Virus record (IMG/VR): IMGVR_UViG_3300046328_000149
Location: 1-33,538 of that record
DNA length: 33,538 nt
Source: a virus
Strand: one strand, 5' to 3'
Part shown: piece by piece, positions 215 to 33,538 of the stretch
Layout: every line of letters begins with the position of its first letter
How positions within the stretch are numbered: position 1 is the stretch's first letter
The notes under the pieces: model-generated
What the model was told of the DNA's origin: nothing
Databases searched by the model: none
What the model saw: the letters and a program-made list of their open reading frames with translations, nothing else
Made by a program: the position numbers and the translations under genes

Positions 215-397
215 ATGCAACAACAAATCCAATGTTCCATTTATGTTTTTGATATAATTAAAAATCATATCGAACCAAATACTATTTACGATTTAGTTAG
301 ATTTGAAAATAATAATACAAATACAATTATTGGATTTGAGATTTATGTTTTTGAAAAGGAACTATATAAATATAGTAGTTACAGAGTTTTTTTATAA
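215..397 (+). CDS. Small protein, C-x-Y-[IV]-x-D-I family
   Basis: A 60-residue ORF with an ATG start 4 nt after the preceding stop. Near the N-terminus it reads QCSIYVFDIIKNHI, which fits the motif C-x(1-2)-Y-[IV]-x-[DE]-I found in about a dozen small plus-strand ORFs in this window (14008, 14693, 20974, 21413, 21535, 21730, 29572, 30766, 33274 and others). The C-terminal half (IIGFEIYVFEKELYK) resembles the equivalent part of the partial ORF at 33274. It overlaps the convergent gene at 392-787 by 6 nt. No function is known or suggested by the sequence. It has no signal peptide or membrane segment. Assignment to the family rests on the motif only. Confidence 0.5.
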   Translation: MQQQIQCSIYVFDIIKNHIEPNTIYDLVRFENNNTNTIIGFEIYVFEKELYKYSSYRVFL

Positions 398-787
398 AAC
401 AACATTCAGTTTTACTATTCTAGTTTCATCAATATTTAAGGTTGGATTATGAATAGTTAATGTAATTTCATCACCATTAATTATTGCATTGGTTACTGTG
501 AGATTAACATCAGTTAATTGAATTTTAGATTTAAAATATTCTTTATGTGAATCTAAATTAATTGTAACAGTAATTTCTTTAACTAAGATTTTTTCAGATT
601 GCTTTCTACCCCTCTTAGGTAATCTACCAACCCAATTACCATTTCTTACTGTAGGTACATCAATTTCAATAATTTCTTCCGAAATTTGAATAGTATAATA
701 ACCTAAACCATCAGTAACAAAATAATTATTTGTATTTGATGTTAATAGGCCATTTGTAGCAATTGAGTATGGATCAACATTGTTCAT
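392..787 (-). CDS. Unknown protein at the 3' end of the tail-fibre operon
   Basis: 131 residues, last gene of the minus-strand appendage operon that begins at 7709. Its ATG lies only 3 nt from the stop of the upstream fibre gene (791-2008), so translational coupling is likely. The sequence is polar and beta-rich, with alternating Thr/Ile/Val strands (EITVTINLDSHKEYF, NAIINGDEITLTIHNP) and one basic patch (RLPKRGRKQSEK). There are no cysteines, signal peptide or membrane helices. I recognise no family. Position suggests a small virion appendage or fibre-tip/assembly protein, which is inference from context only. Confidence 0.55.
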   Translation of the reverse strand: MNNVDPYSIATNGLLTSNTNNYFVTDGLGYYTIQISEEIIEIDVPTVRNGNWVGRLPKRGRKQSEKILVKEITVTINLDSHKEYFKSKIQLTDVNLTVTNAIINGDEITLTIHNPTLNIDETRIVKLNVVL

Positions 788-790
788 TTT

Positions 791-2008
791 TTAAACTCTA
801 GTTACTGTTACGACATCAGCAACATTACCTAATGTTTGTGTTATATTACCAGCAGTTCTACTTGTTCTAGAAACAACCATTGGATTTGCAGCATCCAATC
901 CATGTATTTGGTGTATATCTTCAACCTTTTCTGGAATCAAGAAACCACGTCTATTCATTACGATATTAACACCGCTATTATCTTCTAATGTCCCTAAACC
1001 TCTTAATATAATTGTTCCATCAGTACAAGTTGAATCCAATCTAATATTTCCACTAATTAATTCAATATTTGCAAATGAATTAACAGTATCACAATTAATA
1101 ATATTTAAATCACCTGAATGATTTTTGATTTGAAGGCTTGTTGTATTTGATAAATTCATATTAATGATTGGAGATAATACAACAGAGTTTAATCTAGTCG
1201 AATATGAATCTGCAATTACTAAATTATCATCTATTTTAATAACACCCTTTAATTGTGAACTATTAATAGTGCCATTCATATTTAATGAATTAATAATTGT
1301 CGAATTTTTAATAATTATTTCACTATTAATAAAATCTGAATCAATAATAAAGTTATCAAATAATACATTATTAAATAATATATTATTATAATGTGTTAAT
1401 TGAATATTTGGATTTTGCCCAATAAAATTAATATTACTTATCGTTGTATTTGATATTCCAGAAAAACCAATATTTGTTAATACTTTTATTGTATTAAATC
1501 CATAATAATTGGCCAATGTTAACGCACCAGCAACATTATTTATTGGATTTGAAATTGTTCCGTTTGGATATATAGCACTTGAATATATTGATGATTCATC
1601 TAAAAATATTGAACCTAAGTATTCAATTTTTTCATTACTTTCAGTTGTAACACTTTTTATCTCAACGATATTGGATACGTTTTGTCTAATTACAATAGTA
1701 TAACCAGTAGTTGTTAAATATGGATTACCACCACCTTCTTGATATAAGTTACCAACAATGTCCAAGACGTGATTACCTTCATATGGTTTAAACTTCCATC
1801 CATTAATAATGAAATAGGTAACACCTAAACTATCTAATCCAACAGTCGGGTCACCACCCACAAATCTAAAAGCAGCTTCATATTGTGGATAATCAAATAC
1901 CCAATCTTTCCATCTAGAGTAAATTTCATCAACGGTTATATTAATATCACCAGTATCTGTTACTGTAATTGTTTTATTAACTCCATCGAATGAAACTACT
2001 GCTGCCAT
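791..2008 (-). CDS. Tail-fibre/virion appendage protein with beta-helix body
   Basis: 405 residues. The N-terminus has a module seen in many phage virion proteins: a short beta segment (TITVTDTGDINITVDEIYSR), then WKDW, an Ala/Phe-rich stretch, FVGGDP and YFIINGWKFKPYEGNH. A related pattern (LYSFLKEEW ... FEFVGG) occurs in the neighbouring 548-residue protein at 5480-7126. Residues about 150-330 are a run of short Asn/Ile/Ser-rich strands (NTTISNINFIG, NNVLFDNFIIDSDFINS) typical of a right-handed beta-helix. The C-terminus contains IHGLDAANPMVVS and repeated Thr/Val strands. It probably acts as a distal fibre or spike protein, with the N-terminal module attaching it to the virion. Exact position in the particle cannot be read from sequence. 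Confidence 0.65.
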   Translation of the reverse strand: MAAVVSFDGVNKTITVTDTGDINITVDEIYSRWKDWVFDYPQYEAAFRFVGGDPTVGLDSLGVTYFIINGWKFKPYEGNHVLDIVGNLYQEGGGNPYLTTTGYTIVIRQNVSNIVEIKSVTTESNEKIEYLGSIFLDESSIYSSAIYPNGTISNPINNVAGALTLANYYGFNTIKVLTNIGFSGISNTTISNINFIGQNPNIQLTHYNNILFNNVLFDNFIIDSDFINSEIIIKNSTIINSLNMNGTINSSQLKGVIKIDDNLVIADSYSTRLNSVVLSPIINMNLSNTTSLQIKNHSGDLNIINCDTVNSFANIELISGNIRLDSTCTDGTIILRGLGTLEDNSGVNIVMNRRGFLIPEKVEDIHQIHGLDAANPMVVSRTSRTAGNITQTLGNVADVVTVTRV

Positions 2009-2031
2009 TTATATATGTTTAATCAACAAAG

Positions 2032-8676: not shown

Positions 8677-9449
8677 TGGATAAGGTAAAATATTTGGAAT
8701 TGCAAGATAAAATGAAGAATGATAAATCATTTTTCAAAAAATATAATAAATTAAAAGATGATTTAGAGAAACATCTAGGTACATCAATTGAAATACAAAT
8801 GTCATATACACCAGAAGATCAAAAAGGTGATGAAATGATGCCATCTGAAATGGAATCTAATGAATTTTGGAATCAATATAGTGTAGCATTAAAAGAATTA
8901 TTGGAACATAGAATTGATGTTGGTGATAAAACGATTCACTTATCATCTGATATTGATGATTTATCGCTATCAGAAATGGATACAAAAATAAGAATAATTG
9001 AAAAGTTATCTCCAGAATATGAAGAAGATAAAATATCACCATTAAATATTGTTGTAACATCTTATGGTGGTGATGCTTATACAACACTTGGAATTGTTGA
9101 TCTGTTGAATGAAAAACCATATCCAATACATGGTACAGGTCGTGGACAGATAATGTCTGGTGGTGCGTTTATTTTGATTGCATGTGATTATAGAAAAATG
9201 TCCAAGAACTCATGGATGATGATTCACCAAACCAATGGAGGATTTTTTGGAGCATTTAAAGATATGGCCATCAATTATGAACATTTGAAGAAATTAAACA
9301 ATTGTGTTTTAGATTTATTGGTTTCAAAATCAAATAAATCTAAAGTATGGTGGGAAAATAAGTTGAAAGAAGGTGATTATTATTTAAGTGCTGATGAAGC
9401 AAAAGAACTTGAATTAATTGACGAAGTGATTGATTATGCAACTAAATAA
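8676..9449 (+). CDS. ClpP-like serine protease
   Basis: 257 residues. The core (about 85-250) has the ClpP/crotonase fold signature: IVVTSYGGDAYTTLGIVDLL, then GQIMSGGAF with the nucleophile Ser161, then MMIHQTNGG with His184. The C-terminal GDYYLSADEAKELELIDE matches the ClpP end. The Asp of the triad is not at the obvious ClpP position; Asp234 in GDYYLS is the nearest candidate. The N-terminal ~85 residues are an extra charged helical region absent from bacterial ClpP. In phages, ClpP-type proteases commonly process capsid proteins, but this one sits with PhoH and enzymes rather than head genes, so it could act on host or phage regulators. It is immediately downstream of PhoH and overlaps the next gene by 14 nt. 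Confidence 0.82.
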   Translation: MDKVKYLELQDKMKNDKSFFKKYNKLKDDLEKHLGTSIEIQMSYTPEDQKGDEMMPSEMESNEFWNQYSVALKELLEHRIDVGDKTIHLSSDIDDLSLSEMDTKIRIIEKLSPEYEEDKISPLNIVVTSYGGDAYTTLGIVDLLNEKPYPIHGTGRGQIMSGGAFILIACDYRKMSKNSWMMIHQTNGGFFGAFKDMAINYEHLKKLNNCVLDLLVSKSNKSKVWWENKLKEGDYYLSADEAKELELIDEVIDYATK

Positions 9450-10257
9450 ATACAACGGAACTGGTACTAAAAGAATATTAGTAATTGCTGGTGTTCATGG
9501 AAATGAATTAACACCAGTGATGTCAGCATCTATATTGGAAAGATATTTAACACAAGATTCACCAAATTATAGTGAATTAACTGTTATAAACTTTGTAAAT
9601 GAACAAGGTATTAGAGATAATACCAGAGAGATGCCAATCCAAAATGATTTGAATAGAATGTTTAAATCCGATAATGTTGACATTTTTGAAACATTAAAAG
9701 AAAATATCGATAATTCAGATGTTGTTATAGATATACATTCATCACCATTGTGTACTGATTTTGTATTAATCAATAGAGATAAATTTTGTAATTCATATGT
9801 TAATTTTTGTAGAAGTAGTGATATTTATTATGTTATTAGAAATAGTAGTAATGATACAATAAAAAAATATTGCTTGGACAATGATAAGATTGGATTTACC
9901 ATTGAATTAAATAAACTTGATATTGTTGATATAAACTCTGCAAAAAATGGTGCAAGAATTATATTAAAATTAATATCAAATGTTAGCACATTAACAATTG
10001 AATCTTTAAATCCAATATACTCACACTATATTGAATTTAATAGCAGTAGTGAAGGAATATTTATTCCAAGCAATAAAAAACTTGGGGATATCGTGACAAA
10101 CGGAGATTTGATTGGTGATTTAATATTATTCAATGGACAATCAGAAGAAATAAAATATAATGGATTGGATGCTAGGATTATGTTTGGATCGGGTAGATCT
10201 TATGTGGCACAGGGTGAATGTATTTACGGCTTACAACCAATCGAAAATAGTTTTTAA
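9436..10257 (+). CDS. M14-type zinc hydrolase, succinylglutamate desuccinylase/aspartoacylase-like
   Basis: 273 residues from the ATG at 9436; a TTG two codons earlier is possible but less likely. Zinc-site motifs of the AstE/AspA branch of M14 are all present: GVHGNE (His21, Glu24), the substrate-binding NDLNR (70-74), DIHSS (His101, third zinc ligand) and TIELN (Glu157, candidate general base). The C-terminal part (EGIFIPSNKKLGDIVTNGD and following) resembles the beta-domain of this family. Family members hydrolyse N-acyl amino acids or related amide bonds. In this phage the substrate is unknown; a role in cell-envelope or metabolite turnover, or capping of a glutamyl/aspartyl polymer, is possible. 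It overlaps the ClpP-like gene by 14 nt and is followed 2 nt later by the gene at 10260. Confidence 0.82.
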   Translation: MQLNKYNGTGTKRILVIAGVHGNELTPVMSASILERYLTQDSPNYSELTVINFVNEQGIRDNTREMPIQNDLNRMFKSDNVDIFETLKENIDNSDVVIDIHSSPLCTDFVLINRDKFCNSYVNFCRSSDIYYVIRNSSNDTIKKYCLDNDKIGFTIELNKLDIVDINSAKNGARIILKLISNVSTLTIESLNPIYSHYIEFNSSSEGIFIPSNKKLGDIVTNGDLIGDLILFNGQSEEIKYNGLDARIMFGSGRSYVAQGECIYGLQPIENSF

Positions 10258-12277: not shown

Positions 12278-12278
12278 T

Positions 12279-13130: not shown

Positions 13131-14015
13131 ATGGGTAGGAAGAAAGGTGTCAAACTAAAAGAACCGTATTTTGGAGAAAGAGAAGAACAAGCAGTAATGG
13201 ATTATTTATTGGGTGATTCGGAAACGAAAAATCAAATATATAATCTAATACTTAAAAAAGCATTTAAAAAGATGATTCCATCTATTTTGAAGCGATATAG
13301 AAATTATATTGGCAATCATGATATTGTGGAACTTGAAATGGATGGATTATCCTTTTTAATTGAAAATATGCATAAGTATAATAAATTTCTGATTGAATAT
13401 AGAAGAATAAATTCAGAAGATGATTGGGAAAAGCATAAACATTTTAAGTATAAAACTGAACTTGAACAATTAAAGAAATTAAACGAAATCCAAGGTTCGA
13501 TTGAATTTGAATATAGAACCTGTATAGCCAGTGCCTATTCTTACTATGGAACTATTGTTAGAAATTATTTTAGACATAGATCAAAAGATGCAAGAAAAGA
13601 AGTAATTGAAAATCTTGATTTTGAAGTGTTTATTGATGAAGTTGAAACTAGATATGATTATGCTTATGAAATGGATACATCAGATCAACAAGAAGAAGAT
13701 GAAAATAAATTCTTTAATTCAGTAGTTGATCAGATTAGATTGGAAATTAAAACCAATACCCTTCTAAAGAAAAATGAAATTATTGTCGGTGAAGCTATTA
13801 TAAGTATTTTATTTAACTGGAAAACATTATTCAATGAAGAAATTACAGAAGATAATGATGGTAAACAATCTACATCCAACTTTAGAAAGAATAAAATGTT
13901 GTTGCTCTTAAAAGAACAAACAAGATTAACAACAAAAGATATTCGTGATTCAATTAAAAATTATAAATCAATTTATTATCTTACTAAAAAAATGATAAAT
14001 ATGGATAATGAATAA
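13131..14015 (+). CDS. gp55-like late-transcription sigma factor
   Basis: 294 residues. The pattern matches T4 gp55-type sigma factors: an N-terminal GVKLKEPYFGEREEQAVMDY, a helix with IYNLILKKAFKKMIPSILKR, and a region-2-like segment LIENMHKYN ... CIASAYSYYGTIVRNYFRHR. The 'Y-x-E' start and 'AYSYY/AYSYF-x-x-[IV]-x-x-NY' core are the features I rely on. T4 gp55 is about 185 residues, so this protein has a longer C-terminal part including the acidic MDTSDQQEEDENKF and NDGKQSTSNFRKNK. It would bind host RNA polymerase core and direct it to late promoters. The conserved ACTATTTATRTA sites upstream of virion operons are the natural candidates. A 45-nt A/T leader separates it from the glycosyltransferase; the next gene overlaps by 8 nt. 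Confidence 0.72.
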   Translation: MGRKKGVKLKEPYFGEREEQAVMDYLLGDSETKNQIYNLILKKAFKKMIPSILKRYRNYIGNHDIVELEMDGLSFLIENMHKYNKFLIEYRRINSEDDWEKHKHFKYKTELEQLKKLNEIQGSIEFEYRTCIASAYSYYGTIVRNYFRHRSKDARKEVIENLDFEVFIDEVETRYDYAYEMDTSDQQEEDENKFFNSVVDQIRLEIKTNTLLKKNEIIVGEAIISILFNWKTLFNEEITEDNDGKQSTSNFRKNKMLLLLKEQTRLTTKDIRDSIKNYKSIYYLTKKMINMDNE

Positions 14016-14703
14016 TTTAGTTTGTAAATATATTGAAGATATTGTAAATCATATAAACATTCATTTATTACCAGAAGAATATGATTATCATAATATAGCA
14101 TATGCTGCTAAGAGAAATGAATTTCTTCTAAATCTAAGTAGTAAAGAAACGTGGAGATATGAAAAATTACCAATCCAATATAATTCAACATGTTTATATA
14201 TTGAAGATATTATGTTTTTAATAAAAAAAGATTTATTACATGATGAATTCAATATGTTACATGATTCATTGGATTGGAAAAATATGTGGTTGGATTATAA
14301 TAGAAGAAAGTTATTATCAAAAATTCGACCTAATTATCATAATAATAGTAGTATTAATATTGTAAAAAATCACCACTATTATATCACACATTCTTATAAA
14401 TTAAATACACCATCTAATAAAATAGAATTAGAATATGATGTTAATAAATGTTATAATAATCATCATTTAGCTTGTAAATATGTTGAAGATATTCTTGTTA
14501 TAATTAATAAAAATTTATTATCGAATGAATTAATTTGTGTATTTGGCTCAACCTTTGAAACAATAATGTGGCAAATTGAAGAAGCACATAGAATAAAAAC
14601 AATGTCCAACATAAAAAATAAATACAAAGAATTAAAGGATATAATACCAAATGATGTTGATTTAACAAAAACAAATTTTATTTTTGAAAGGGATGAAGAA
14701 TAA
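14008..14703 (+). CDS. Three-repeat C-x-Y-[IV]-E-D-I protein
   Basis: 231 residues overlapping the sigma factor gene by 8 nt. It contains three tandem copies of a ~50-90-residue unit: LVCKYIEDIVNHINIHLL (Cys6), STCLYIEDIMFLIKKDLL (Cys62) and LACKYVEDILVIINKNLL (Cys156). Each is followed by [HPS]-[DNE]-E and then a Trp-containing helix (KETW, KNMW, IMWQIEE). The units are clearly repeats of one domain, and single-domain versions occur at many other sites in this window. The pattern predicts an amphipathic helix after the cysteine. No known family is recognised. Overlap with the sigma gene suggests co-expression, but the repeat origin of the gene means that position may be incidental. Confidence 0.68.
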   Translation: MNNLVCKYIEDIVNHINIHLLPEEYDYHNIAYAAKRNEFLLNLSSKETWRYEKLPIQYNSTCLYIEDIMFLIKKDLLHDEFNMLHDSLDWKNMWLDYNRRKLLSKIRPNYHNNSSINIVKNHHYYITHSYKLNTPSNKIELEYDVNKCYNNHHLACKYVEDILVIINKNLLSNELICVFGSTFETIMWQIEEAHRIKTMSNIKNKYKELKDIIPNDVDLTKTNFIFERDEE

Positions 14704-14899
14704 TTACAAAATAGAAACAAATCCAAAAATTGTTTTCTGCAAATATGTTGAAGAGATATTATTGGATTTGTTTCAAAATCATTTATTGCATGATGAAATA
14801 AATAAAATTAGTTACATTAGTAAGTATGATGATGGATATCTCGTTAGATTATTTTATAATTTAAGAATAAAAAATATTTTTAGACAAATTCGAATATAA
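14693..14899 (+). CDS. Small protein, C-x-Y-[IV]-x-E-I family (fourth tandem copy)
   Basis: 68 residues from the ATG at 14693 (a TTG at 14684 would add three residues). It overlaps the three-repeat gene by 11 nt. It carries FCKYVEEILLDLFQNHLLHD with the cysteine at residue 16, followed by E-I-N, which matches the repeats just upstream and in particular repeat 2 (LLHDE). It then has a basic, aromatic C-terminus (YLVRLFYNLRIKNIFRQ). It looks like a fourth repeat separated from the upstream protein by a frame change. No function is apparent. Confidence 0.6.
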   Translation: MKNNYKIETNPKIVFCKYVEEILLDLFQNHLLHDEINKISYISKYDDGYLVRLFYNLRIKNIFRQIRI

Positions 14900-14932: not shown

Positions 14933-14944
14933 AACTAAATAGCT

Positions 14945-16617: not shown

Positions 16618-16884
16618 ATGGGTAGGAGATTTAGAACCAATTATTTTTATAATTTAAAATATGCAAATCCAAACAATATTAGATTTAAATATGGTGGTGT
16701 GGTATGTTGTTCGGAAGTATCAAAAATTTTAACAAAAATATTTATGGATAATATGATGTACAGCGAGATATCAATATTATATCCTGACAGTGATATATTT
16801 AATATTCATTCAATTAACTCATTTGATAATAATATATTTGCCAGAGTTAATTTTCCACCAGATTCTATTTATAAGAAACAATAA
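16618..16884 (+). CDS. Small protein, divergent member of the C-motif family
   Basis: 88 residues inserted between two structural genes of the operon, 5 nt after the upstream stop and 2 nt before the next ATG. It contains VVCCSEVSKILTKIFMDNMM, where C-x-x-[EV]-x-x-I-L aligns loosely with C-x-Y-[IV]-x-[DE]-I-L, followed by SEISILYPDSDIF. The match is weaker than for the other members (no Tyr at the third position), so membership is tentative. The N-terminus is basic and aromatic (MGRRFRTNYFYNLKYANPNN). No function assigned. Confidence 0.5.
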   Translation: MGRRFRTNYFYNLKYANPNNIRFKYGGVVCCSEVSKILTKIFMDNMMYSEISILYPDSDIFNIHSINSFDNNIFARVNFPPDSIYKKQ

Positions 16885-20212: not shown

Positions 20213-20977
20213 ATGATTGACTTTATAAAACTCTTTTCCACATTTAATAATGTAAAGTATTATGATGTGCCTCACAAGTACTATGTTAATGATGTGCAGT
20301 TCACATCTGTAACTACATTATTGCATAAATTCACCAATCCATTTGATGAAGATTATTGGAGTGAATATAAAGCAAAAGAATATGGAAAGACCAAACAAGA
20401 GGTATTGGATATGTGGAAGCTTGAAAATAAAATATCCACAGTTAAGGGTTCTCTTGTTCATAAATACGCTGAAGACTATATCGCAAATAAAGTATTCGAT
20501 TATCCACAAGAAACAGTTATAAAGGAATTTGGATCTGATATAATAAAAGGTTCTTATGACGTATCAATCAAACAATTTGAATCTTTTTATAATGCAGCCT
20601 TTGGAAAACTAATACCAATCAAATCTGAATTTATTGTATATGATTTGGAATATAAAATATCAGGAATGCTTGATCAGTTATTTTATAATGTTAAAATGAA
20701 TTGCTTGGATATATATGATTGGAAAACAAACAAAGAAATAAAAACTGTAAATCAGTATCAAAAAATGTTATTGCCAGTGAATCATTTAGATGATTGTAAT
20801 TATTGGGAATATTCATTACAGTTAAATCTATATAAATGGATTATTGAAAAGAACACTGGTATTAAGATTGGGAATATGTGTGTAATATGGCTAAACCAAA
20901 ACAATTCGGATTTTCAACTATTTAAAATAAGCGATATGCAAAACGAAATACAAGCAATATTAAAATATTTGAAATGA
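20213..20977 (+). CDS. PD-(D/E)XK-family nuclease (RecB-like exonuclease)
   Basis: 254 residues. The order of motifs is that of the RecB/AddB-like PD-(D/E)XK fold: KGSLVHKYAEDYI (about 78-90; helix with conserved His and Glu), a strand with KSEFIVYDLEYKISGMLDQL giving the metal-binding G-x-x-D, then IYDWKTNKE giving D-x-K (the PD...DxK core), and YSLQLNLYKWIIE, the Q-x-x-x-Y helix. The protein is therefore likely an active Mg-dependent nuclease, perhaps acting on DNA ends in recombination or host DNA degradation. It begins a plus-strand unit with a TAnnTTTG-type -7 element; its last codons overlap the next ATG (ATGA). Confidence 0.82.
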   Translation: MIDFIKLFSTFNNVKYYDVPHKYYVNDVQFTSVTTLLHKFTNPFDEDYWSEYKAKEYGKTKQEVLDMWKLENKISTVKGSLVHKYAEDYIANKVFDYPQETVIKEFGSDIIKGSYDVSIKQFESFYNAAFGKLIPIKSEFIVYDLEYKISGMLDQLFYNVKMNCLDIYDWKTNKEIKTVNQYQKMLLPVNHLDDCNYWEYSLQLNLYKWIIEKNTGIKIGNMCVIWLNQNNSDFQLFKISDMQNEIQAILKYLK

Positions 20978-21420
20978 ATCTAAACAATAGAAATCAAGAA
21001 TTGGATGAAAATGATTGGATTGGTTATTGTAGTTATATATTAATAATTAAACAAATGATAATTAGTGCTAGTAATCCACCACCAAAATTTAATCCAGAAC
21101 GTGAGTTATCAATTAATATTAATAATTTTGAACATAATTGTTATTATGTTAATAATATTATAAATATGATGTTAAAATCAATAGCTAGATTTGAAATTGG
21201 TGAAACATTATTTTATAAAAATGGTTATTATCAAACATCTAATAGTAATGATGTTAGTATAAAATTATCCAATATATTAACATATTGTATTGATAGAAAT
21301 TCCTATGTTGAATATAATGAAAATAATAAAACTCATTATAATGAGCGTAATATATTTCCAGTTAAAATGGTAGAAGAACTTGAAGATGGAATAACCTTAT
21401 TTGAATTAACTGATGATTAA
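20974..21420 (+). CDS. Small protein, C-motif family, first of a micro-gene cascade
   Basis: 148 residues, starting at an ATGA overlap with the nuclease gene. There are two motif-like segments: DWIGYCSYILIIKQMIIS near the N-terminus and HNCYYVNNIINMMLKSIARF, with C-x-Y-V-x-[ND]-I, in the middle (about residues 50-70). The C-terminus is acidic (KMVEELEDGITLFELTDD). No other family is recognised. It is followed by an overlapping ATG (21413) of the next micro-gene, so the run 20974-21797 is tightly coupled. Confidence 0.6.
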   Translation: MNLNNRNQELDENDWIGYCSYILIIKQMIISASNPPPKFNPERELSININNFEHNCYYVNNIINMMLKSIARFEIGETLFYKNGYYQTSNSNDVSIKLSNILTYCIDRNSYVEYNENNKTHYNERNIFPVKMVEELEDGITLFELTDD

Positions 21421-21538
21421 TAATTGTAAATATATAAGAGAAATAATTGATATTATTGTTGAACATATTCCAATATCGGAGATTTTATCTGAGCCAAAAT
21501 TATCACATATAATATTATACTGCATTGTGAGAGAATGA
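21413..21538 (+). CDS. 41-residue C-motif micro-protein
   Basis: The ATG lies inside the last codons of the upstream gene (8-nt overlap). The peptide begins MINNCKYIREIIDIIVEHIP, an excellent match to C-x-Y-[IV]-x-[DE]-I, then PISEILSEPKLSHIILYCIV. It ends in a TGA that overlaps the following ATG (ATGA). Its motif, coupling and codon use support a real gene, though it is only 41 residues. Confidence 0.55.
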   Translation: MINNCKYIREIIDIIVEHIPISEILSEPKLSHIILYCIVRE

Positions 21539-21675
21539 ACATTAATTGTAAATATATTGATATGATATTAAATGATGTTATAGATTCATTCACTGATGAA
21601 GAAATATTCACGCAACCAATAACATCAATAGTTGTCTATTGTTTAACTAGATTTAATGGAAAAAACATAAAATGA
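21535..21675 (+). CDS. 46-residue C-motif micro-protein
   Basis: Starts at the ATGA overlap with the previous micro-gene and ends in an ATGA overlap with the next. The N-terminus is MNINCKYIDMILNDVIDSFT, followed by DEEIFTQPITSIVVYCLTRF. It is very similar in layout to the 21413 product (INxCKYI ... EI ... [IV]x-YC), so the two are likely tandem duplicates. Function unknown. Confidence 0.55.
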   Translation: MNINCKYIDMILNDVIDSFTDEEIFTQPITSIVVYCLTRFNGKNIK

Positions 21676-21797
21676 AAATATGTGATCACGCTGACGAAAT
21701 AATAAAGTTATTGCTTAAAAACTTAACTTATGGAGAAAAATTTAGGATATTACCAATCCTATACTACATTTATGGACACGAATATTGGATTGATTAA
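21672..21797 (+). CDS. 41-residue micro-protein, third of the ATGA cascade
   Basis: Begins at the ATGA overlap with 21535-21675. The peptide is MKICDHADEIIKLLLKNLTY then GEKFRILPILYYIYGHEYWI. C-x-H-[AV]-x-[DE]-I fits the family motif with His in place of Tyr, and the LP-ILYYIY end matches the hydrophobic C-terminal strand of the two upstream micro-proteins. The next ORF (21730) overlaps it in another frame. Confidence 0.5.
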   Translation: MKICDHADEIIKLLLKNLTYGEKFRILPILYYIYGHEYWID

Positions 21798-21942
21798 AAA
21801 TAATTTTAACATAGAAAAATATAATAATAATATTAATAATTTTGATGTTATAAGAGATAACTGTCAATATATTAAGGATATTTTATATTTAATTATTGTA
21901 CATCATTTATCGGATGATGAAATAATTTATTTATACAGATAA
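21730..21942 (+). CDS. Small protein, C-x-Y-I-x-D-I family
   Basis: 70 residues from the ATG at 21730, or 56 from an in-frame ATG at 21772, which leaves only a 26-nt overlap with the preceding micro-gene and is the more likely start. The C-terminal part reads NCQYIKDILYLIIVHHLSDD, then EIIYLYR, an excellent family match (C-x-Y-I-x-D-I-L ... LSDDE). Here the motif is C-terminal rather than N-terminal. An Asn-rich linker (NNNINNFDVIRDN) precedes it. Confidence 0.55.
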   Translation: MEKNLGYYQSYTTFMDTNIGLIKNNFNIEKYNNNINNFDVIRDNCQYIKDILYLIIVHHLSDDEIIYLYR

Positions 21943-21947
21943 AAGAT

Positions 21948-22160: not shown

Positions 22161-22161
22161 G

Positions 22162-22177: not shown

Positions 22178-22198
22178 ATATATGTAAACTATATTAGA

Positions 22199-22687: not shown

Positions 22688-22724
22688 TTTATTATAATAT
22701 TTTTTGTTTTACTATTTTCTTATT

Positions 22725-22738
22725 TTAATATAAATAGT
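22725..22738 (-). promoter_or_regulatory. Candidate late promoter for the tail tube gene
   Basis: Read on the minus strand the site is ACTATTTATATTAA, ending 37 nt before the ATG at 22687. It is the longest leader among the eight sites. Confidence 0.5.
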
Positions 22739-22802
22739 ATGGTAGAAAAAAAATAATTATATTAATTTGCTTTTTGAGAAAAAATTGTTATAAAATAATC
22801 TA

Positions 22803-24662: not shown

Positions 24663-24678
24663 GTTTATTGGATTGGTT

Positions 24679-24689
24679 TATATAAATAA
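24679..24689 (-). promoter_or_regulatory. Late-promoter-like site before the homing endonuclease
   Basis: On the minus strand TTATTTATATA ends 16 nt before the ATG at 24662. It has T instead of C at the position before TATTTATA. It overlaps the foot of the hairpin at 24686-24721. Confidence 0.4.
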
Positions 24690-24721
24690 ATCCTAACACA
24701 AATTAATATGTTAGGATTTAT
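24686..24721 (-). terminator. 13-bp stem-loop downstream of the tail sheath gene
   Basis: ATAAATCCTAACA (24686-24698) pairs perfectly with TGTTAGGATTTAT (24709-24721) around a 10-nt loop. Read on the minus strand it starts 18 nt past the sheath stop, so it likely terminates the sheath message before the endonuclease gene. There is no long U tract, so an mRNA-stabilising role is possible. Confidence 0.55.
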
Positions 24722-24739
24722 AATGATTATTTTAAAAAT

Positions 24740-27412: not shown

Positions 27413-27437
27413 ATTTTTTTCTTTTATCTAATTTTTT

Positions 27438-27449
27438 TATATAAATAGT
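27438..27449 (-). promoter_or_regulatory. Candidate late promoter for the tail sheath gene
   Basis: Read on the minus strand the site is ACTATTTATATA, ending 25 nt before the ATG at 27412. Confidence 0.5.
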
Positions 27450-27494
27450 TACTAGAATCGAAGAAAATTATAATGGTAAAAGTTTTTTATTTTT

Positions 27495-27508
27495 AGATAT
27501 TTATGTGT
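27495..27508 (+). promoter_or_regulatory. Candidate late promoter for the 678-residue virion protein
   Basis: AGATATTTATGTGT on the plus strand ends 22 nt before the ATG at 27531. It keeps TATTTATGT of the fibre-operon site but differs at the first bases. Confidence 0.4.
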
Positions 27509-27530
27509 AACGACCTTTTAATAAATATTG

Positions 27531-29567
27531 ATGGAAAATAAAAGAATAAAAATAAAATTCAATAGTGAATTTGAAGAAGATAAATATCTAACAATTAAGC
27601 TTGAGCAATCTTTTGATATGTTGGAGGTATTATCTCTTAAATTAACCCAAACCGATATATATAGAGATTTTAATGCTAATTATGGTGTATTGGTGGGGAG
27701 GGTTATTGCCAATGAGGGTATTGGTGTTCCAAATGCAAAAATATCTATTTTTATACCTATCGATGAAGAAGATAAAACAAATTCAGATATATTGGCAATA
27801 TATCCATTTGAATCACCAACCGATACTGATATAAATAATATTAAATATAATTTACTACCTAGAGTATCACAACTTAATCCATTTAATGATATTGATATAA
27901 ATGATTTGGGTGTTGGTTATACACCAGCTACTCCAGTTGGTACTTTTCCCACCAAATATGAAATTCTTGCCAATGAAACACAATTGGAAGTTTATAAAAA
28001 ATATTATAAGTTTACCACTGTAACAAATCAATTTGGTGATTATATGTTATTTGGTGTGCCTGTTGGATTATATACAGTTCACATGTCTGTTGATATAACA
28101 GATATTGGTAGATTCTCAATGTCTGTTCCAAGCATGATAACAAATCTTGGTTATTCTGAAAATTTGTTTATTGAAAATGGAACAAAAATAAAAACATCAA
28201 AAGATTTAGATATTTTACCCAACATACAATTGCAGAATGTTTCAGTTAATATAAGACCTTTTTGGGGCGATACCGAAAACTTTGAAATTGGTATAACAAG
28301 ACAAGATTTTAAGATTAGAGCTAAATTAACAACAACATTTACGATATTTGGTGGTGTATTTACTGATGGCCCACAATCATTTTGGGGTACTGGATTTGCT
28401 GATGCTGCATATACTAGAGCAGATCAAATGGATAGAATAACAGATCCAGGTGGTAGTAACGTCTCTTTATCAACTAAACGAATTGGATTACCCACAATAA
28501 CAATTGTTTATATTCCAAATACAATATCTGATGAAGATGCTGCAAATGGTAATTATGATCCAATAAGTGATTGTTTAGTTTTGGATAAAACACAATATAG
28601 TGAATTTTTGGATGATGGTATGTTTTGTTTGATTATTCCATGTAATAGAAGAAAAATTATATTTGATGAGGTTGGTAATCAAATGGAAATATCATCAGAT
28701 GATAATAGGGGTATATTTACAGAATTTAGGGGATTTATAACAATAAAATATGATGATGAGAGACTTAACATGGTGGCATCAATGGAAAAATTAGTTGATA
28801 ATGGTGCACCACCATTTGACACACAAGAAAATACTGGTCGCCCAGATAGAACCGCAATAAAATTTCCACAATCTGCAACAACAGATCAATCATTTAATAA
28901 AGATGAAACTGGTGCAGAATTAACGTATAATGATAATTGGAGAAAACAACATAAAAAATTTGAATATGGTAAATTTTATAGCATAGCCAAATTTCACGCA
29001 TTATCTTGTCAACGTCAAAATACTGTAAATGAATTAGATGAAGAAGCATTTTCAAACTCTGGTGTTATTGTCGATTATCCTGTTGTTAATACAGATACTG
29101 ATTTTCCTTGGAATGGTGTTGATAGTTATGGTAATGATGGATTTGGTGCGGAGTGGTTAAATTTTACGCTACACTTGCCACAATACTCAACATATTTTCA
29201 AGATACTGGTGATCCAACAAGTGCAGCAATGAGCTTAAATGTTAGTCAAAACCATGATTCAACATTTTATAGAGATGATAATACACAAGAAATTGGTGCT
29301 GGTTTGAGAAACACAAGAATGTTTTTAAGATCGGATAGACACCCAACTGATTTTGTTGAAGTTCCTAAAAATGATATTGCGCTAATATTAGCGTTTGTCA
29401 CTAAAGGATTTTCTAAACTTGATATACCAGATTTGGAGGGTAATTATAAAGTTAGTGGAAAGGTTGGTGGTGTTTCAGCAGGTGCTAATAATACTGATCC
29501 ATATTTTTATAAAGGATTTGGTACTTCGGATTGTATTCAATATCTTAGAACATTAAATATAATATAA
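27531..29567 (+). CDS. Large virion protein with carboxypeptidase-regulatory-like domain
   Basis: 678 residues from the ATG at 27531; a TTG one codon upstream is less likely. Residues about 45-190 have a transthyretin/carboxypeptidase-regulatory-like pattern: NYGVLVGRVIANEGIGVPNA, KISIFIP, then TVTNQFGDYMLFGVPVGLYT and VHMSVDITDIG. The long remainder is beta-rich with an RITDPGGSNVS segment, VYIPNTISDEDAANGNYDP and an aromatic C-terminal region (FPWNGVDSYGNDGFGAEWLN). It lies head-to-head with the sheath gene and has a late-promoter-like site, so it is most likely a tail, baseplate or neck component. I cannot place it more precisely. Confidence 0.65.
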   Translation: MENKRIKIKFNSEFEEDKYLTIKLEQSFDMLEVLSLKLTQTDIYRDFNANYGVLVGRVIANEGIGVPNAKISIFIPIDEEDKTNSDILAIYPFESPTDTDINNIKYNLLPRVSQLNPFNDIDINDLGVGYTPATPVGTFPTKYEILANETQLEVYKKYYKFTTVTNQFGDYMLFGVPVGLYTVHMSVDITDIGRFSMSVPSMITNLGYSENLFIENGTKIKTSKDLDILPNIQLQNVSVNIRPFWGDTENFEIGITRQDFKIRAKLTTTFTIFGGVFTDGPQSFWGTGFADAAYTRADQMDRITDPGGSNVSLSTKRIGLPTITIVYIPNTISDEDAANGNYDPISDCLVLDKTQYSEFLDDGMFCLIIPCNRRKIIFDEVGNQMEISSDDNRGIFTEFRGFITIKYDDERLNMVASMEKLVDNGAPPFDTQENTGRPDRTAIKFPQSATTDQSFNKDETGAELTYNDNWRKQHKKFEYGKFYSIAKFHALSCQRQNTVNELDEEAFSNSGVIVDYPVVNTDTDFPWNGVDSYGNDGFGAEWLNFTLHLPQYSTYFQDTGDPTSAAMSLNVSQNHDSTFYRDDNTQEIGAGLRNTRMFLRSDRHPTDFVEVPKNDIALILAFVTKGFSKLDIPDLEGNYKVSGKVGGVSAGANNTDPYFYKGFGTSDCIQYLRTLNII

Positions 29568-29571
29568 AATT

Positions 29572-29973
29572 ATGCTTTGCAACTACTTAAATGATATTTA
29601 TGATAAACATATCCACATTGGATTGGATAATGTAGAACGTTCCATATTCTCTCGAAGAATTATGAACGACACACTTAATTTACTATATTCAATAGATACT
29701 GAAATAACTAATATGAGTGGTTCAATATTCTTTATAAAAAATAATAAAATATTATTTGAACTATGTAATAGTGATAAAAAACGATTTATAATTTGTCATT
29801 ATAATAAAACTTGGCGTGTTTTATATAAAAAACATCATCTAAAATATGATGATGTTAAATATTTATTAAGTATGGCTGTCGAAAATTGTTTAGAATTAGG
29901 ATTAATAGAAGTACAACCATCCAATAAACATAATCAACATAGATGGAATCTATTTGAACGAATCTGGTTATAA
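29572..29973 (+). CDS. C-motif family protein, long form (paralogue of 30766)
   Basis: 133 residues, 4 nt after the virion gene. It begins MLCNYLNDIYDKHIHIGLDN with the motif C-x-Y-[LI]-x-D-I at residues 3-9. It is a full-length paralogue of the 30766 product: shared segments are the first ten residues MLCNYLNDIY, LFEL, FI-C-[HN]-Y-[NA]-K-[TV]-W, KYDD and VEN-x-L-x-LG. These define a second, C-terminal half of the long form absent from the micro-proteins. Function is unknown. The stop is 4 nt before a 30-bp perfect palindrome that probably terminates transcription. Confidence 0.68.
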   Translation: MLCNYLNDIYDKHIHIGLDNVERSIFSRRIMNDTLNLLYSIDTEITNMSGSIFFIKNNKILFELCNSDKKRFIICHYNKTWRVLYKKHHLKYDDVKYLLSMAVENCLELGLIEVQPSNKHNQHRWNLFERIWL

Positions 29974-29976
29974 AAA

Positions 29977-30006
29977 TAAATAAGGTAGATTAATCTACCT
30001 TATTTA
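29977..30006. terminator. 30-bp perfect palindrome between convergent genes (bidirectional terminator)
   Basis: Positions 29977-29991 and 29992-30006 are exact reverse complements (core GGTAGATTAATCTACC). It lies between the plus-strand family gene (stop at 29973) and the minus-strand lipoprotein gene, whose stop codon is inside it. The A-rich and T-rich flanks suit termination in both directions. Confidence 0.7.
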
Positions 30007-30457
30007 AATAAAATTTTGTCTTATATGGATTTATACCATGATCACTCTTAGTTAATTCTAATTGGATTTGATTATCATCATTTGAGATAATTGTTAGTGT
30101 ATAAAATACATTAACACCATATTTAATTGTATATATATCATTATCAATATACGAAATATCTCTTTGTTTACTCCCTAATTCACAAGGTTGTGAAAAATAC
30201 TCGTTATTAACAAACTCAAATGAAAATTCATTTATCCAAGGAATATACTGTTCTGGCGTGTTTCCACCATCACACATTTGTTCTCTACTCCAAGTTTTAC
30301 CATCATTGGTCTGGACATATTCCATAACCCACCTACCAGTCAATTTTGCTTTGATTTCAGCAAATTCATCTACTGGTTTAACATCTTCTTTACCATCACA
30401 TGATGCAATAAACATCATTACAAATACCGATAAAATCATCAAATTAATCTTTTTCAT
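29990..30457 (-). CDS. Putative surface lipoprotein, lipocalin-like
   Basis: 155 residues from the ATG at 30457; the upstream ATG at 30490 would add 11 residues ahead of the signal and is unlikely. The N-terminus is a type II signal peptide: MKKINLMILSVFVMMF then lipobox IASC, with the acylated Cys followed by DGKEDVKP. K-E-D after the Cys fits the K-(D/E)2 export signal reported for surface lipoproteins of Bacteroidetes. The mature part has LTGRWVMEYVQTNDGKTW, the start of many lipocalin-like beta-barrel proteins, then alternating beta strands (YTIKYGVNVFYTLTIISND). A phage-coded outer-membrane lipoprotein could block superinfection, as the T5 Llp protein does; this is inference. It lies alone on the minus strand between two family genes. 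Confidence 0.75.
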   Translation of the reverse strand: MKKINLMILSVFVMMFIASCDGKEDVKPVDEFAEIKAKLTGRWVMEYVQTNDGKTWSREQMCDGGNTPEQYIPWINEFSFEFVNNEYFSQPCELGSKQRDISYIDNDIYTIKYGVNVFYTLTIISNDDNQIQLELTKSDHGINPYKTKFYLNKVD

Positions 30458-30593
30458 TGTTTTAAAATTTAAATTGTTTAATACTTTCAATCATATAAAC
30501 GCAAATCAATCCAAAAAGGTTTTGCTTTTTGTGAAAACAGTTTAAAGAATTTCATAGTGAATAAAATAAATTATATTTAACATTAAAATAATT

Positions 30594-30646
30594 ATGTTTT
30601 ATAGTTGAATAGTCAGTTTTAAGCTGACAATGATGATATAAAACAT
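30594..30646. other. Two-level stem-loop, possible structured RNA or operator
   Basis: ATGTTTTATA (30594-30603) is complementary to TATAAAACAT (30637-30646). Inside the enclosed 33 nt, GTCAG (30612-30616) pairs with CTGAC (30624-30628) around a 7-nt loop. The nested arrangement is unusual for this gene-dense region and may be a small RNA, leader structure or binding site. Confidence 0.35.
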
Positions 30647-30736
30647 CAGATTTAATTAACCCAATTCAATATCCATAGTTTTATTTGTTTAGATTGTAAA
30701 TATCTTACTAATAAATAGGAAATCAAAATAAAATAT

Positions 30737-30744
30737 TATCTTTG
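30737..30744 (+). promoter_or_regulatory. Bacteroidetes-type -7 element before the 30766 gene
   Basis: TATCTTTG fits TAnnTTTG and lies 21 nt upstream of the ATG at 30766. No clear -33 TTTG is seen. Confidence 0.35.
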
Positions 30745-30765
30745 TTGATAAAAATAACCAAAACT

Positions 30766-31191
30766 ATGCTCTGCAACTATTTAAACGATATTTATCTCAA
30801 TCATATATATAAGTCATTATCTAATGATGAATATGTTTATTCACAAGAAGTAGAAGAAATCTTTTTGGATTTGTGGTTCTCCTGTAATAACGCCAAAACA
30901 TATCTAGAACATCCAGATAGTACTTTTTATTGTATAAATGAAGATATATTATTTGAATTGTATATTAAACAGGATTTAAAAAAACAATTTATATACTGCA
31001 ATTATGCTAAGGTTTGGTCTGTTTTCGAATCTAAATATTATATGAAATATGATGATATTCAACAGCTTATAAAGAACGTGGTGGAGAATACGCTCAAATT
31101 AGGGTCAACAACACCACGTGATTTAAATTGGAAAGTATTAAAGATGAAAAATACGCTCAAATTAGGGTCAATAACACCCCTTTATTTTTGA
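30766..31191 (+). CDS. C-motif family protein, long form with C-terminal repeat expansion
   Basis: 141 residues from the ATG at 30766, chosen because the product then starts MLCNYLNDIY exactly like the 29572 protein; a TTG at 30742 is the only alternative. Paralogous segments include LFEL, FIYCNYAKVW, KYDDIQQLIK and VENTLKLG. After VENTLKLGSTTP the sequence repeats as KNTLKLGSITP, because the DNA carries a 63-bp in-frame tandem duplication with a third decayed copy beyond the stop. Function unknown. It is preceded by a -7 element of host type rather than the late-promoter motif. Confidence 0.65.
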   Translation: MLCNYLNDIYLNHIYKSLSNDEYVYSQEVEEIFLDLWFSCNNAKTYLEHPDSTFYCINEDILFELYIKQDLKKQFIYCNYAKVWSVFESKYYMKYDDIQQLIKNVVENTLKLGSTTPRDLNWKVLKMKNTLKLGSITPLYF

Positions 31192-31230
31192 TACCACCTC
31201 AATTAATTGTGGAGAACACCCTCAAATTCA
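31081..31230 (+). repeat. Degenerate tandem repeat, period 63-65 bp
   Basis: AATACGCTCAAATTAGGGTC starts at 31087 and again at 31150 (exact for 22 bases, 63 bp apart, in frame). A third copy, GTGGAGAACACCCTCAAATT at 31209, matches GTGGAGAATACGCTCAAATT of copy 1 at 18 of 20 positions. The first two copies encode NTLKLGS; the third is past the stop codon. Confidence 0.75.
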
Positions 31231-31253
31231 CATATTGTAAATCATTTAACAGA

Positions 31254-32036
31254 TTAAATATACGTTCCACTAGCTGTAAAAGTAGTTCCAGTTGGAAATA
31301 CAAGTGATTTGAGTTGGATATTATCGAATCTATTATTAATATTGGTGGTGTAGCCAGTATTTGAGAATTCTTTAAATGAATCTAAAAACCCAATATTCAT
31401 TGCATATGTCCTACCAGTGATATTAAGTTGTGTTAATTTATAAAATATTGTTTCACCACTTTTAGGTATAAATAAGTTATCGAAAAATGGTATTATTTTG
31501 CCAGTTTTTGCGTTATAGAAAGAAAATTTAATATACACATTAACAGATGTGCCAGTTTGTTGAGCAATAAATGTTTTGGGTATTAATATTTTTGTTTGTT
31601 CATCAGTTGTTAAAAATCTAATATTTGTTGAACCAGTATATCGATTTGATGTTATTGGTTTAATATATGTTGTGGATAATAAATTTTGTATTTTGCTATT
31701 AACAGAATCATATACTTCCATAGCATAGAAGCTATTAATAAACGAAGTTTGGTTTTGATTTAATTCTGTTTGTGTGAAACCAGCATGTTTATATGTTGTA
31801 TTAAATGATAATGTATTTCCTGATCTAAAACTAAATGAAAGTAATAAATTTGGTGTAGGTTGTTCAAATTTAAATCTAATCTTCTCACTATCTAGATATG
31901 GATTAATTCTTTCTTCTTCTTTGGTTTGGGCAATTAAAGAAATATCAGATTCATCAAAATACACATCAAATCCATTTTTTAGATTTAATTTAATATTTTT
32001 ATCTAAATTATCATTTAAAAATTTTTCACTTAACAT
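31254..32036 (-). CDS. Probable virion structural protein
   Basis: 260 residues, second gene of a two-gene minus-strand unit; its ATG is 1 nt past the stop of the upstream gene. It is beta-rich with a Phe/Asn/Thr bias (LLLSFSFRSGNTLSFNTTYK, KIIPFFDNLFIPKSGETIFY), and a C-terminal TTFTASGTYI strand, as in tail or fibre-related proteins. The N-terminal segment (KNGFDVYFDESDISLIAQTK) is more soluble. No cysteines and no membrane helices. No family recognised; its pairing with the 385-residue gene suggests both belong to one virion sub-structure. Confidence 0.5.
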   Translation of the reverse strand: MLSEKFLNDNLDKNIKLNLKNGFDVYFDESDISLIAQTKEEERINPYLDSEKIRFKFEQPTPNLLLSFSFRSGNTLSFNTTYKHAGFTQTELNQNQTSFINSFYAMEVYDSVNSKIQNLLSTTYIKPITSNRYTGSTNIRFLTTDEQTKILIPKTFIAQQTGTSVNVYIKFSFYNAKTGKIIPFFDNLFIPKSGETIFYKLTQLNITGRTYAMNIGFLDSFKEFSNTGYTTNINNRFDNIQLKSLVFPTGTTFTASGTYI

Positions 32037-32037
32037 A

Positions 32038-33195
32038 TTAACATGGTGCGTTTAATTTTTCAAAATTATTTGATAACGAGTTTGCAATATTGGTTGAACC
32101 TGTTTGATAGATTGATCTAAACAATGTTAATGTATCAGCATCGGTTAAATCTGGTTTCATATCTAATATTAGATTATTATATACGTAATGTCTTCCATTA
32201 ACAAATGGATAATCAACCCCATTTAACGACTCTGGTTCAATAAAACCATAATCTAGTATATCTCTCCATAAATAGTTTTGGGTTGATTCTAGAAGCACCT
32301 TATGGTCTGGAATGATGGCATTTGTAACACCACTATAAACCAATTCGGAGTTTTCTGAAAAATCTCTTAATTTTATTTTATGAAATGGTTTATATTTTAA
32401 TATTATAGTTTTATTAACTAAACTCACATTTTTGTAATTACCATTAATATAATATTCTTGTTCTTGAACTATCTCTTCAATAAAGTTTTCTTTTGTATAT
32501 TCAATCAAATTTCCATATACTGTACTTGCCGTTGTTGGTAAAGTTAAAACAGGATATGAATAGCTTGTTGGCTCTTCTCCATCACCATATTCAGTATATC
32601 TTACAAATTCCGATTGTGGTGCAGTTGTGGTTGGTATGTACTCAAAGTATATGTATAAGTCCATTAATGGCTTATTAAACCTATCAACAATGTTATTCAC
32701 ATCAATATCCACATCAAAATTGTATAGATTCTTTTTTTCATTAAATAAATTAACACTATACCCACAACTATAGGTATCAAAATCTGTTAATTGTGTTAAT
32801 TTATCAAAATATTGGATATATCTATCATTATTTAATGTAGTTCCACTACTATAAGATACCTTGCATAGATATGTTTTAAAGCTATTTGAAAAATTTTTTA
32901 ATAAATTATTATTAATTTCAGATTGAACTGGTGGCCTAAAGAAATCAGTAGTGCCACTATATTGGATTGGAATGTTATTAAATAAAGAAAAATATTCAAT
33001 ATTCCCATATATCCTAAATTTGGTTGATTGCTGCCTCTCATAATCAAATCTTTCAGATAATGATAGATACCTATTAACAATATCTTCATTAATTTGCTTT
33101 CTTTCAGCCTTTAATTCAACATTGAGATAAATGTCTTGGTTGACACTATCTGTATTCTTAAACTGATTTAATTGGATTTGAGTCGATTCTTGCAA
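32038..33195 (-). CDS. Probable virion structural protein with TTG start
   Basis: 385 residues. The frame has an in-frame TAA 9 nt before the TTG at 33195 and no other start until far inside, so TTG initiation is likely. The N-terminus QIQLNQFKNTDSVNQDIYLN is followed by a helical KAERKQINEDIVNRYLSLSE; the rest is aromatic and beta-rich (YFEYIPTTTAPQSEFVRYTE; LLESTQNYLWRDILDYGFIE). I recognise no family, but the composition and the presence of a late-promoter-like site 10 nt upstream place it with virion proteins such as baseplate or neck components. It is the first gene of the unit ending at 31254. Confidence 0.55.
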   Translation of the reverse strand: MQESTQIQLNQFKNTDSVNQDIYLNVELKAERKQINEDIVNRYLSLSERFDYERQQSTKFRIYGNIEYFSLFNNIPIQYSGTTDFFRPPVQSEINNNLLKNFSNSFKTYLCKVSYSSGTTLNNDRYIQYFDKLTQLTDFDTYSCGYSVNLFNEKKNLYNFDVDIDVNNIVDRFNKPLMDLYIYFEYIPTTTAPQSEFVRYTEYGDGEEPTSYSYPVLTLPTTASTVYGNLIEYTKENFIEEIVQEQEYYINGNYKNVSLVNKTIILKYKPFHKIKLRDFSENSELVYSGVTNAIIPDHKVLLESTQNYLWRDILDYGFIEPESLNGVDYPFVNGRHYVYNNLILDMKPDLTDADTLTLFRSIYQTGSTNIANSLSNNFEKLNAPC

Positions 33196-33205
33196 GATTT
33201 CTTTT

Positions 33206-33217
33206 TACATAAATATT
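33206..33217 (-). promoter_or_regulatory. Candidate late promoter for the 31254-33195 unit
   Basis: On the minus strand AATATTTATGTA ends 10 nt before the TTG at 33195. It keeps the TATTTATGTA core of the fibre-operon site and differs at the 5' bases. Confidence 0.35.
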
Positions 33218-33273
33218 TGGAAAATAATTTCTTTTATGAGATATTTGAGTTTTTAACAATAAACAGTTATTAA

Positions 33274-33538
33274 ATGTTTAATATCCATCTCTCAAAAGAA
33301 TATTGCTCTTATATTAAAGATATACTCTATCGGATTGGTGATAGTTTGGATAATAGTGAATTTGTCATTATATATAATAGTTTTTGTTTACCAAATATTA
33401 AATTAATTGCTGTAGAATTAACAGATTTAAATATTCAAATATTTAAAAATCCATATAATGATAGTGTTAATACATATCAGGTAGTATTTAAAGTCGAAGA
33501 TAATAATTATGTTTATGGTGAAAGATTTAGATTAATAG
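33274..33538 (+). CDS. C-x-Y-I-x-D-I family protein (partial)
   Basis: ATG at 33274 opens a frame that runs off the window end after 88 codons. The N-terminus MFNIHLSKEYCSYIKDILYR carries the family motif with the cysteine at residue 11. Then DSLDNSEFVIIYNSF parallels the LLxDE segment of other members, and a beta-rich part follows (IKLIAVELTDLNIQIFKNPY). The C-terminal half resembles the 215-397 ORF. It is on the plus strand like all the other members. The true end lies outside the window. Confidence 0.6.
   Translation, partial: MFNIHLSKEYCSYIKDILYRIGDSLDNSEFVIIYNSFCLPNIKLIAVELTDLNIQIFKNPYNDSVNTYQVVFKVEDNNYVYGERFRLI

Follow-up and report, generated by a model that had tools for sequence, protein, structure and literature searches.

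The DNA considered here is a 33,538-nucleotide stretch of viral sequence (hereafter the window) that corresponds exactly to IMG/VR record IMGVR_UViG_3300046328_000149, and all copy counts given below cover this fragment. Core phage genes encoding PhoH (7900), an exonuclease (20213), a tail tube (22199) and a tail sheath (24740) are present, together with a ClpP-like head maturation protease at 8676 that was found in an NCBIfam scan with a score under the curated cut-off. Among these genes lie small open reading frames (ORFs) that share the motif C-x-Y-[IV]-x-[DE]-I, from which a sequence-only reading had proposed an undescribed, dispersed family of about a dozen members. Our comparisons show a paralogous family built on a unit of ~20-40 residues, which takes single, triple and tandem-string forms, sits in the gaps between genes, and is private to this phage lineage in the data compared. 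About nine copies of one unit appear to be present in 33.5 kb, and the family looks real.

The strict motif occurs seven times in the six reading frames of the window, always on the plus strand, with Cys codons at 14023, 14191, 14473, 14738, 21425, 21862 and 33304. Order-2 Markov shuffles gave a mean of 0.12 matches (maximum 3) and order-4 shuffles a mean of 0.06 (maximum 1), in 100 shuffles each, so the motif signal that was first noticed by eye is real and lies far above what shuffled AT-rich sequence would produce. Furthermore, a Glu stands 18 or 19 residues after the Cys in all seven matches, a position outside the search motif. The 204 loci fetched for comparison, nearly all from related phages and partly redundant (2.81 Mb in total), contain no strict match in any frame of at least 25 codons; the first 121, shuffled once, gave two. 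The looser pattern C.Y[IVL]..I was observed 13 times where 3.8 were expected; part of its matches are therefore noise and weigh less on their own.

Profiles offer a broader view of which copies stand. Each of 14 positions was scored by a profile of the remaining clear copies against two backgrounds, 5724 ORFs from 18 of 124 related loci and 10820 ORFs of the shuffled window, although these leave-one-out tests are not fully independent of selection because the positions were picked by motif. Naming copies by their Cys codons, we found that no background ORF exceeded 14023, 14191, 14473, 14738, 21425, 21862, 30772 or 33304. All ORFs of the sequence-only reading are present where it placed them, and those discussed here run on the plus strand. 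The first three of these copies lie along a single 231-residue ORF (14008..14703), whose first 8 bases are shared with the end of the 13131 gene. Copy 14738 is the one unit of a 71-residue ORF (14684..14899; 68 residues from ATG 14693) that also yielded a hairpin model, and copy 21425 that of a 41-residue ORF (21413..21538) with an 8-base overlap with the preceding ORF. A 70-residue ORF (21730..21942, inner ATG 21772) carries its unit near the C-terminus (Cys 21862, leave-one-out E value 1.1e-7), and an ORF cut by the record end (33274..33538, 88 residues) carries one at Cys 33304. The 46-residue ORF at 21535..21675 (Cys 21547) scores weakly, being exceeded by 2 of the 5724 and 2 of the 10820 background ORFs, and its resemblance to the neighboring 21425 extends past the motif (P=0.001 from 1000 shuffles). 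Thus eight of the 11 positions earlier listed as clear pass and 21547 is backed by likeness to its neighbor, whereas 21139 and 29578 fail.

Other proposed members fared less well. A 148-residue ORF whose ATGA start lies on the exonuclease stop (20974..21420) contains a doubtful internal copy at Cys 21139. Two further doubtful copies, in a 41-residue ORF within the string of overlapping ORFs (21672..21797) and in an 88-residue ORF that lacks the Tyr (16618..16884), were missed by leave-one-out; the latter ORF has one pairwise phmmer link with the family (E 7e-4, 26 ORFs compared), and its membership is doubtful. Leave-one-out profiles did not recover positions 21681, 16705 or 230, and a search of all 541 window ORFs with the full 11-copy profile returned none of the four weak copies once proposed (215, 16618, 21672 and 21948) at E <=3. 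The description of the motif as N-terminal likewise holds in part, since three copies are spread along the 14008 ORF and others are internal in 20974 or near the C-terminus in 21730-21942.

Two ORFs that had been counted as plain copies, at 29572 and 30766, belong mainly to a second and wider family. The 133-residue ORF at 29572..29973 and the 149-residue ORF at 30742..31191 (inner ATG 30766) are full-length paralogues (phmmer E 1e-23). Two further phage contigs encode relatives of their C-terminal domain. A protein from a distantly related phage (L020:18355-18798) matches ~60-74 C-terminal residues, at E 3e-11 with 30742 (43% identity over 74 residues) and 3e-6 with 29572, and a protein on a 52.8-kb contig (L043:5854-6285) aligns at 29% over residues 57-146. 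This unnamed family is homologous to the C-terminal domain of these two window ORFs only, and it differs from them in that the C-x-Y segment is not present at the N-terminus of either relative. In the 30742 ORF, an N-terminal unit-like segment that passes leave-one-out precedes the separate domain; in the 29572 ORF, the motif segment fails once 30742 is removed. We do not treat the pair as plain members, and a fused unit is possible because the 30772 segment on its own scores like a copy. At the 3' end of the 30742 ORF (31080-31230) lies an imperfect DNA repeat of ~35 bp, with two copies and a partial third; it was not listed by a tandem repeat finder and yields a repeated C-terminal tail, and the homologous L043 protein likewise ends in a repeated tail. 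Between the paralogues, on the minus strand, a 166-residue ORF (29990-30490) without a PHROGs match has a putative lipoprotein-like signal.

The copies appear to be old. Over 1155 codon pairs from 11 copies, mismatch at codon positions 1, 2 and 3 is 0.51, 0.33 and 0.54, compared with 0.71, 0.70 and 0.64 for random coding codons. Given a shared residue, the codon is identical with a frequency of 0.649, and codon usage predicts 0.657. Alignment by residues favors codon positions 1 and 2, but the synonymous result is independent of this. Because synonymous sites seem saturated while the protein is kept, the pattern looks like one of old duplications maintained by purifying selection and not of a recent burst. 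Beyond the motif, the copies most alike are three pairs that are neighboring or within the same ORF. The suggestion that the family spread by duplication into gaps thus gains from the likeness of the nearest pairs and from the enlargement of some gaps, and loses from the age of the duplications and from the fact that no dispersal mechanism was seen.

One member of the family gave a usable fold prediction. In a model of the 71-residue 14684 ORF, made from that sequence and nine further window rows, helices span residues 20-32 and 36-48, with block predicted local distance difference test (pLDDT) values of 80, 81 and 72 over residues 21-50 and a mean of 64.5. The constant Cys (residue 19) lies just before helix 1, which is amphipathic by eye, and the constant Glu (38) lies early in helix 2. 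With moderate confidence, we read the unit as a helical hairpin in which a helix after the Cys would be followed by a short turn and a second helix around the Glu. Comparing folds between single and other forms is limited by quality, as the hairpin of 14684 reaches a pLDDT of about 80 and the model of 30742 is poor (mean 46).

In regard to genomic placement, ORFs 20974, 21413, 21535 and 21672 follow the exonuclease gene as an overlapping string; the start of every one falls on the stop of its predecessor, three times through ATGA and once through an 8-base overlap. We compared gap lengths with those in relatives, dropping pairs more than 6000 bp apart and counting equal combinations of gap length and relative orientation once; gap lengths come from tblastn ends and are biased long, and medians are over distinct values. 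Gap 13131-14945, which holds family copies, measures 932 bp against a median of 97 (31 values, two as large), and gap 20213-22199, which also holds them, 1224 against 661 (53 values, six as large). The gap with the doubtful 16618 ORF (15332-16887) measures 277 against 201 (44 values, three as large), and that with 29572 and 30742 (27528-32038) measures 2473 against 1061 (63 values, 20 as large); none of the 63 has the opposed orientation of 27528 and 32038 seen in the window. Gaps without family ORFs include two enlarged ones, 17516-20213 with TnpB (1812 against 55, 33 values) and 22199-24740 with an endonuclease-like ORF (2052 against 548, 64 values), as well as four below the median (24740-27528, 14945-15332, 12267-13131 and 11225-12267) and one equal to it (16887-17516). 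Among 73 ORFs from three gaps of the relatives there is other cargo, some of it endonuclease-like by eye, and several ORFs between exonuclease and tail tube resemble GIY-YIG or other homing endonucleases or a ClpP-like protease, again by eye. Since these gaps are shorter in relatives or occupied there by other cargo, the family copies sit in the cargo spots of this group.

The two occupants just mentioned deserve a brief description. The TnpB-type RNA-guided endonuclease is encoded at 18769-20136 on the minus strand (NF040570, E 1e-47). The 619-residue ORF between tail tube and sheath (22803-24662, minus strand) has counterparts of ~27% identity in the same position in L021 and L028; it is Cys-rich and homing-endonuclease-like by eye, and it had no NCBIfam match.

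Library searches agree with the proposal that no described family carries this signature. Among the ORFs scanned, none had a significant match in PHROGs v4 (best E 0.015 for 30742, others 0.03 or worse), in Pfam-A (215 and 21948 at E 0.05-0.08, below the cut-off) or, for ORFs 14008, 29572, 30742 and 33274, in NCBIfam (best E 0.061), and a PDB profile search with the unit gave E 0.73. The family is therefore new to PHROGs, Pfam, NCBIfam, PADLOC and the PDB. A tblastn search with the 14008 ORF found nothing at E 10 in 50,697 phage records, from which very near records may have been left out, and a profile search of 10 related records, run without a positive control, found nothing at E 10. Weak matches of the 11-copy profile in relatives (best E 9.4e-4 at a single site in G009, 1.1e-3 at a single site in L021 and 1.5e-3 in L194) fell in stop-to-stop frames of 29-34 codons and were scored at Z=500 though up to 48,155 ORFs were searched; we took them as chance. 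In viral contigs, a collection that may likewise omit records very near the window, an alignment search with the family pattern gave 119 pattern matches and no confirmed one, and searches with the 13131 protein and the 14008 ORF turned up no close relative. No title or passage in the literature we searched names the motif, which does not prove its absence from print. With the strict motif in none of the 204 loci and no library match, a lineage-specific expansion is the reading that stands, subject to the same possible omission of very near records. The family is new; the phenomenon, lineage-specific expansion of a small protein in a large phage, has already been described.

What might such a family do? 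The hairpin fold, the small size, the position in gaps and the restriction to this lineage together fit partner-docking accessory proteins. The members would be accessory genes that a large T4-like phage carries as cargo in its gaps, in some cases linked to the preceding core gene by a short overlap, and their products may act by docking an amphipathic-helix hairpin on one or several partners, most plausibly host proteins, with repeats and strings providing several specificities or avidity. We consider the cargo part of this account very likely. The account as a whole, a private hairpin family serving as partner-docking gap cargo, is our best explanation and a reasonably probable one, while docking on a host protein in particular, for takeover or counter-defense, is offered tentatively and seems rather doubtful. 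Several results weigh against the explanation as a whole. Three of the 11 positions once listed as clear are weak or fail in held-out tests, with 21139 at noise level (exceeded by 16 of 5724 and 27 of 10820 background ORFs) and 29578, its paralogue removed, exceeded by 204 and 415. ORFs 21413, 21672 and 29572 score close to zero for codon usage, so their expression is not assured. The fold relies on a single usable model with a predicted template modeling score of 0.37, and fold searches, Foldseek on that model among them, gave no match. Gap enlargement is not specific to the family, given that 27528-32038 is equaled or exceeded in 20 of 63 values and 15332-16887 has just 277 bp against 201, and that two enlarged gaps carry TnpB and the endonuclease-like ORF instead. 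Lastly, PADLOC returned no match tying any of 10 ORFs to defense, a null result that says little about counter-defense.

Some alternatives question whether there is one intact family at all. A short motif in an AT-rich genome could arise by chance, and the loose pattern is indeed partly noise; seven strict matches against about 0.1, a constant Glu beyond the search motif, its absence from the fetched loci and the held-out profile results leave this idea almost no credibility. Another alternative holds that the string at 21413-21942 is a decaying multi-unit gene split into short frames. Its frames of 41, 46, 41 and 70 residues are adjacent in tandem, two of the four string copies are weak or missed by held-out profiles, and the coding score is near zero for 21413 and 21672. 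Decay is nevertheless improbable in our estimation, as short overlaps place the starts of 21413, 21535 and 21672 at the preceding frame's stop, the selection pattern extends across 11 copies, and 21425 and 21547 are alike beyond the motif. The most serious challenge is that two families have been lumped: 29572 and 30742 would form a separate, wider family, and the likeness of its N-terminus to the unit would be convergent. The failure of 29578 without its paralogue, the motif-free N-termini of the L020 and L043 proteins that match the C-terminal domain, and the 30742 model, which has two N-terminal helices followed by strands and two C-terminal helices (pLDDT 46), all speak for this; the 30772 segment, which still passes without its paralogue (E 5e-4, exceeded by none of the 5724 and none of the 10820 background ORFs), speaks against it. 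We regard its chances as not far short of even.

Other alternatives accept the family and assign it a different role. The unit could be a head-packaging signal cut after the constant Glu by a prohead protease, making the family a set of injected proteins. Variable proteins with one short common segment and a constant Glu would suit this, as would the ClpP-like protease at 8676, and the excerpted text of PMC9026906 states that the prohead proteases of T4 and phiKZ cleave after Glu. T4 internal proteins that carry a capsid targeting sequence, as that excerpt presents them, are similar in that they are accessory, variable and united by one short segment containing a constant Glu, but the C-x-Y unit is not always N-terminal and can be repeated within one ORF. 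A count by eye over the 11 copies finds the T4 site L/I-x-E twice, at 21425 and at the first Glu of 14023, and the phiKZ site S/A-x-E once, at 14473. The unit is also internal (14008 repeats) or C-terminal (21730) in several ORFs, and the Glu is equally well explained as a helix start, as in the 14684 model, with S/T/D-x-x-E in 5 of 11 copies by eye. The position of the unit and the missing L/I-x-E site thus lower packaging to a decidedly unlikely option. Small regulators that bind DNA or RNA polymerase are another, slightly less unlikely option, suggested by basic residues after the hairpin in 14191, 14473 and 14738 (alignment, by eye), where 14191 and 14473 are alike (P=0.019, uncorrected for 55 pairs). 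The basic stretch is not evident in the short string members, however, and there is no Pfam match.

Our preferred reading, a docking family carried as gap cargo, fits into a broader pattern of private gap families. The relative G009 (IMGVR_UViG_3300003316_000244) has its own five-member family of small ORFs in gaps over about 20 kb, with best phmmer links per member of 6e-12, 3e-6, 3e-10, 8e-13 and 8e-13; it was not found in the window nor in fetched loci of other records. Small ORFs of G009, these five among them, fill its gaps at L028:5237-9446, L028:12965-13503 and L029:7370-7732. The two families are alike as dispersed small ORFs in the gaps of phages with blocks of the same gene order, and one G009 member even lies between homologues of 15332 and 16887, the interval that in the window holds the doubtful 16618 ORF; the G009 proteins differ in being about 103-122 residues long and of other sequence. 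Kinship of the G009 family with 29572/30742 was considered and rejected as not significant (hhalign E 0.054, probability 1%). One family of three occurs in the 210-kb G001, and among 15 single loci tested, 10 had no link, four had one pair and one had two pairs. Such families thus appear to recur yet not to be general. Zinc ribbons require several Cys or His ligands, whereas the C-x-Y unit has one constant Cys and matched no zinc-ribbon family. In this it differs from the closest described case, the jumbo-phage lineage-specific expansion of a zinc-ribbon protein to about 35 copies in Bacillus phage G reported in the excerpted text of PMC7824862, which it resembles in that a single large phage carries numerous paralogues of a small protein.

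If the density of copies held over a genome of several hundred kilobases, there would be dozens of them, conceivably a library of docking modules each suited to a different host or defense protein, with sister lineages holding unrelated libraries in like gaps; we think it improbable. A genome of that size may be the source of the window, since contigs with tail-tube relatives (up to 62% identity, among the best 80 of 192 IMG/VR matches) reach 371,504 bp. The statistical support for a private small-protein family in large-phage gaps, beside a relative with a different one, provides a testable set for asking whether gap families are counter-defense arsenals and how fused, split and tandem module forms evolve. 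Proteins that bound host targets could become new tools, and even without host binding the families would point to fast turnover of gap cargo while much of the core order stays.

The nearest relatives of this phage are rather distant. The best sheath matches in the phage collection, in Microcystis phage Mel-JY01 and an uncultured 484-kb phage, show ~30% identity over 76-94% of the length, and the closest IMG/VR relatives reach 51-58%. No close relative was found in viral contigs via PhoH (best 50%) or the sheath (best 55%), and alignment of the 27528 protein gave nothing close among the best 80 of 528 viral-contig rows. In bacterial genome contigs the tail tube matched three loci labeled Bacteroidota, Bacteroidales and Desulfofervidaceae, and with such mixed labels a Bacteroidota host is merely a guess.

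Several repeated words and one further gene may also be of interest. CTATTTATA occurs in exactly six copies, at 53(-), 14920(+), 16865(+), 20149(-), 22737(-) and 27448(-), five of which lie <=50 bp upstream of start codons (14945, 16887, TnpB 20136, tail tube 22687 and sheath 27412), and it is likely a late promoter of the phage, a putative role suggested by this placement. In addition, CCAATCCAA and CAAATCCAA occur 14 and 16 times in the whole window, where composition predicts about 0.15 and 0.4. Within 25 coding genes, CCAATCCAA is found 8 times against 0.7 in 100 synonymous-codon shuffles (maximum 3), and ATCCAA 90 times against 42 (maximum 54) in as many. Finally, amid the phage structural genes, an ORF at 9430-10257 on the plus strand resembles aspartoacylase/succinylglutamate desuccinylase (NF002601, E 6e-11, under the curated cut-off).

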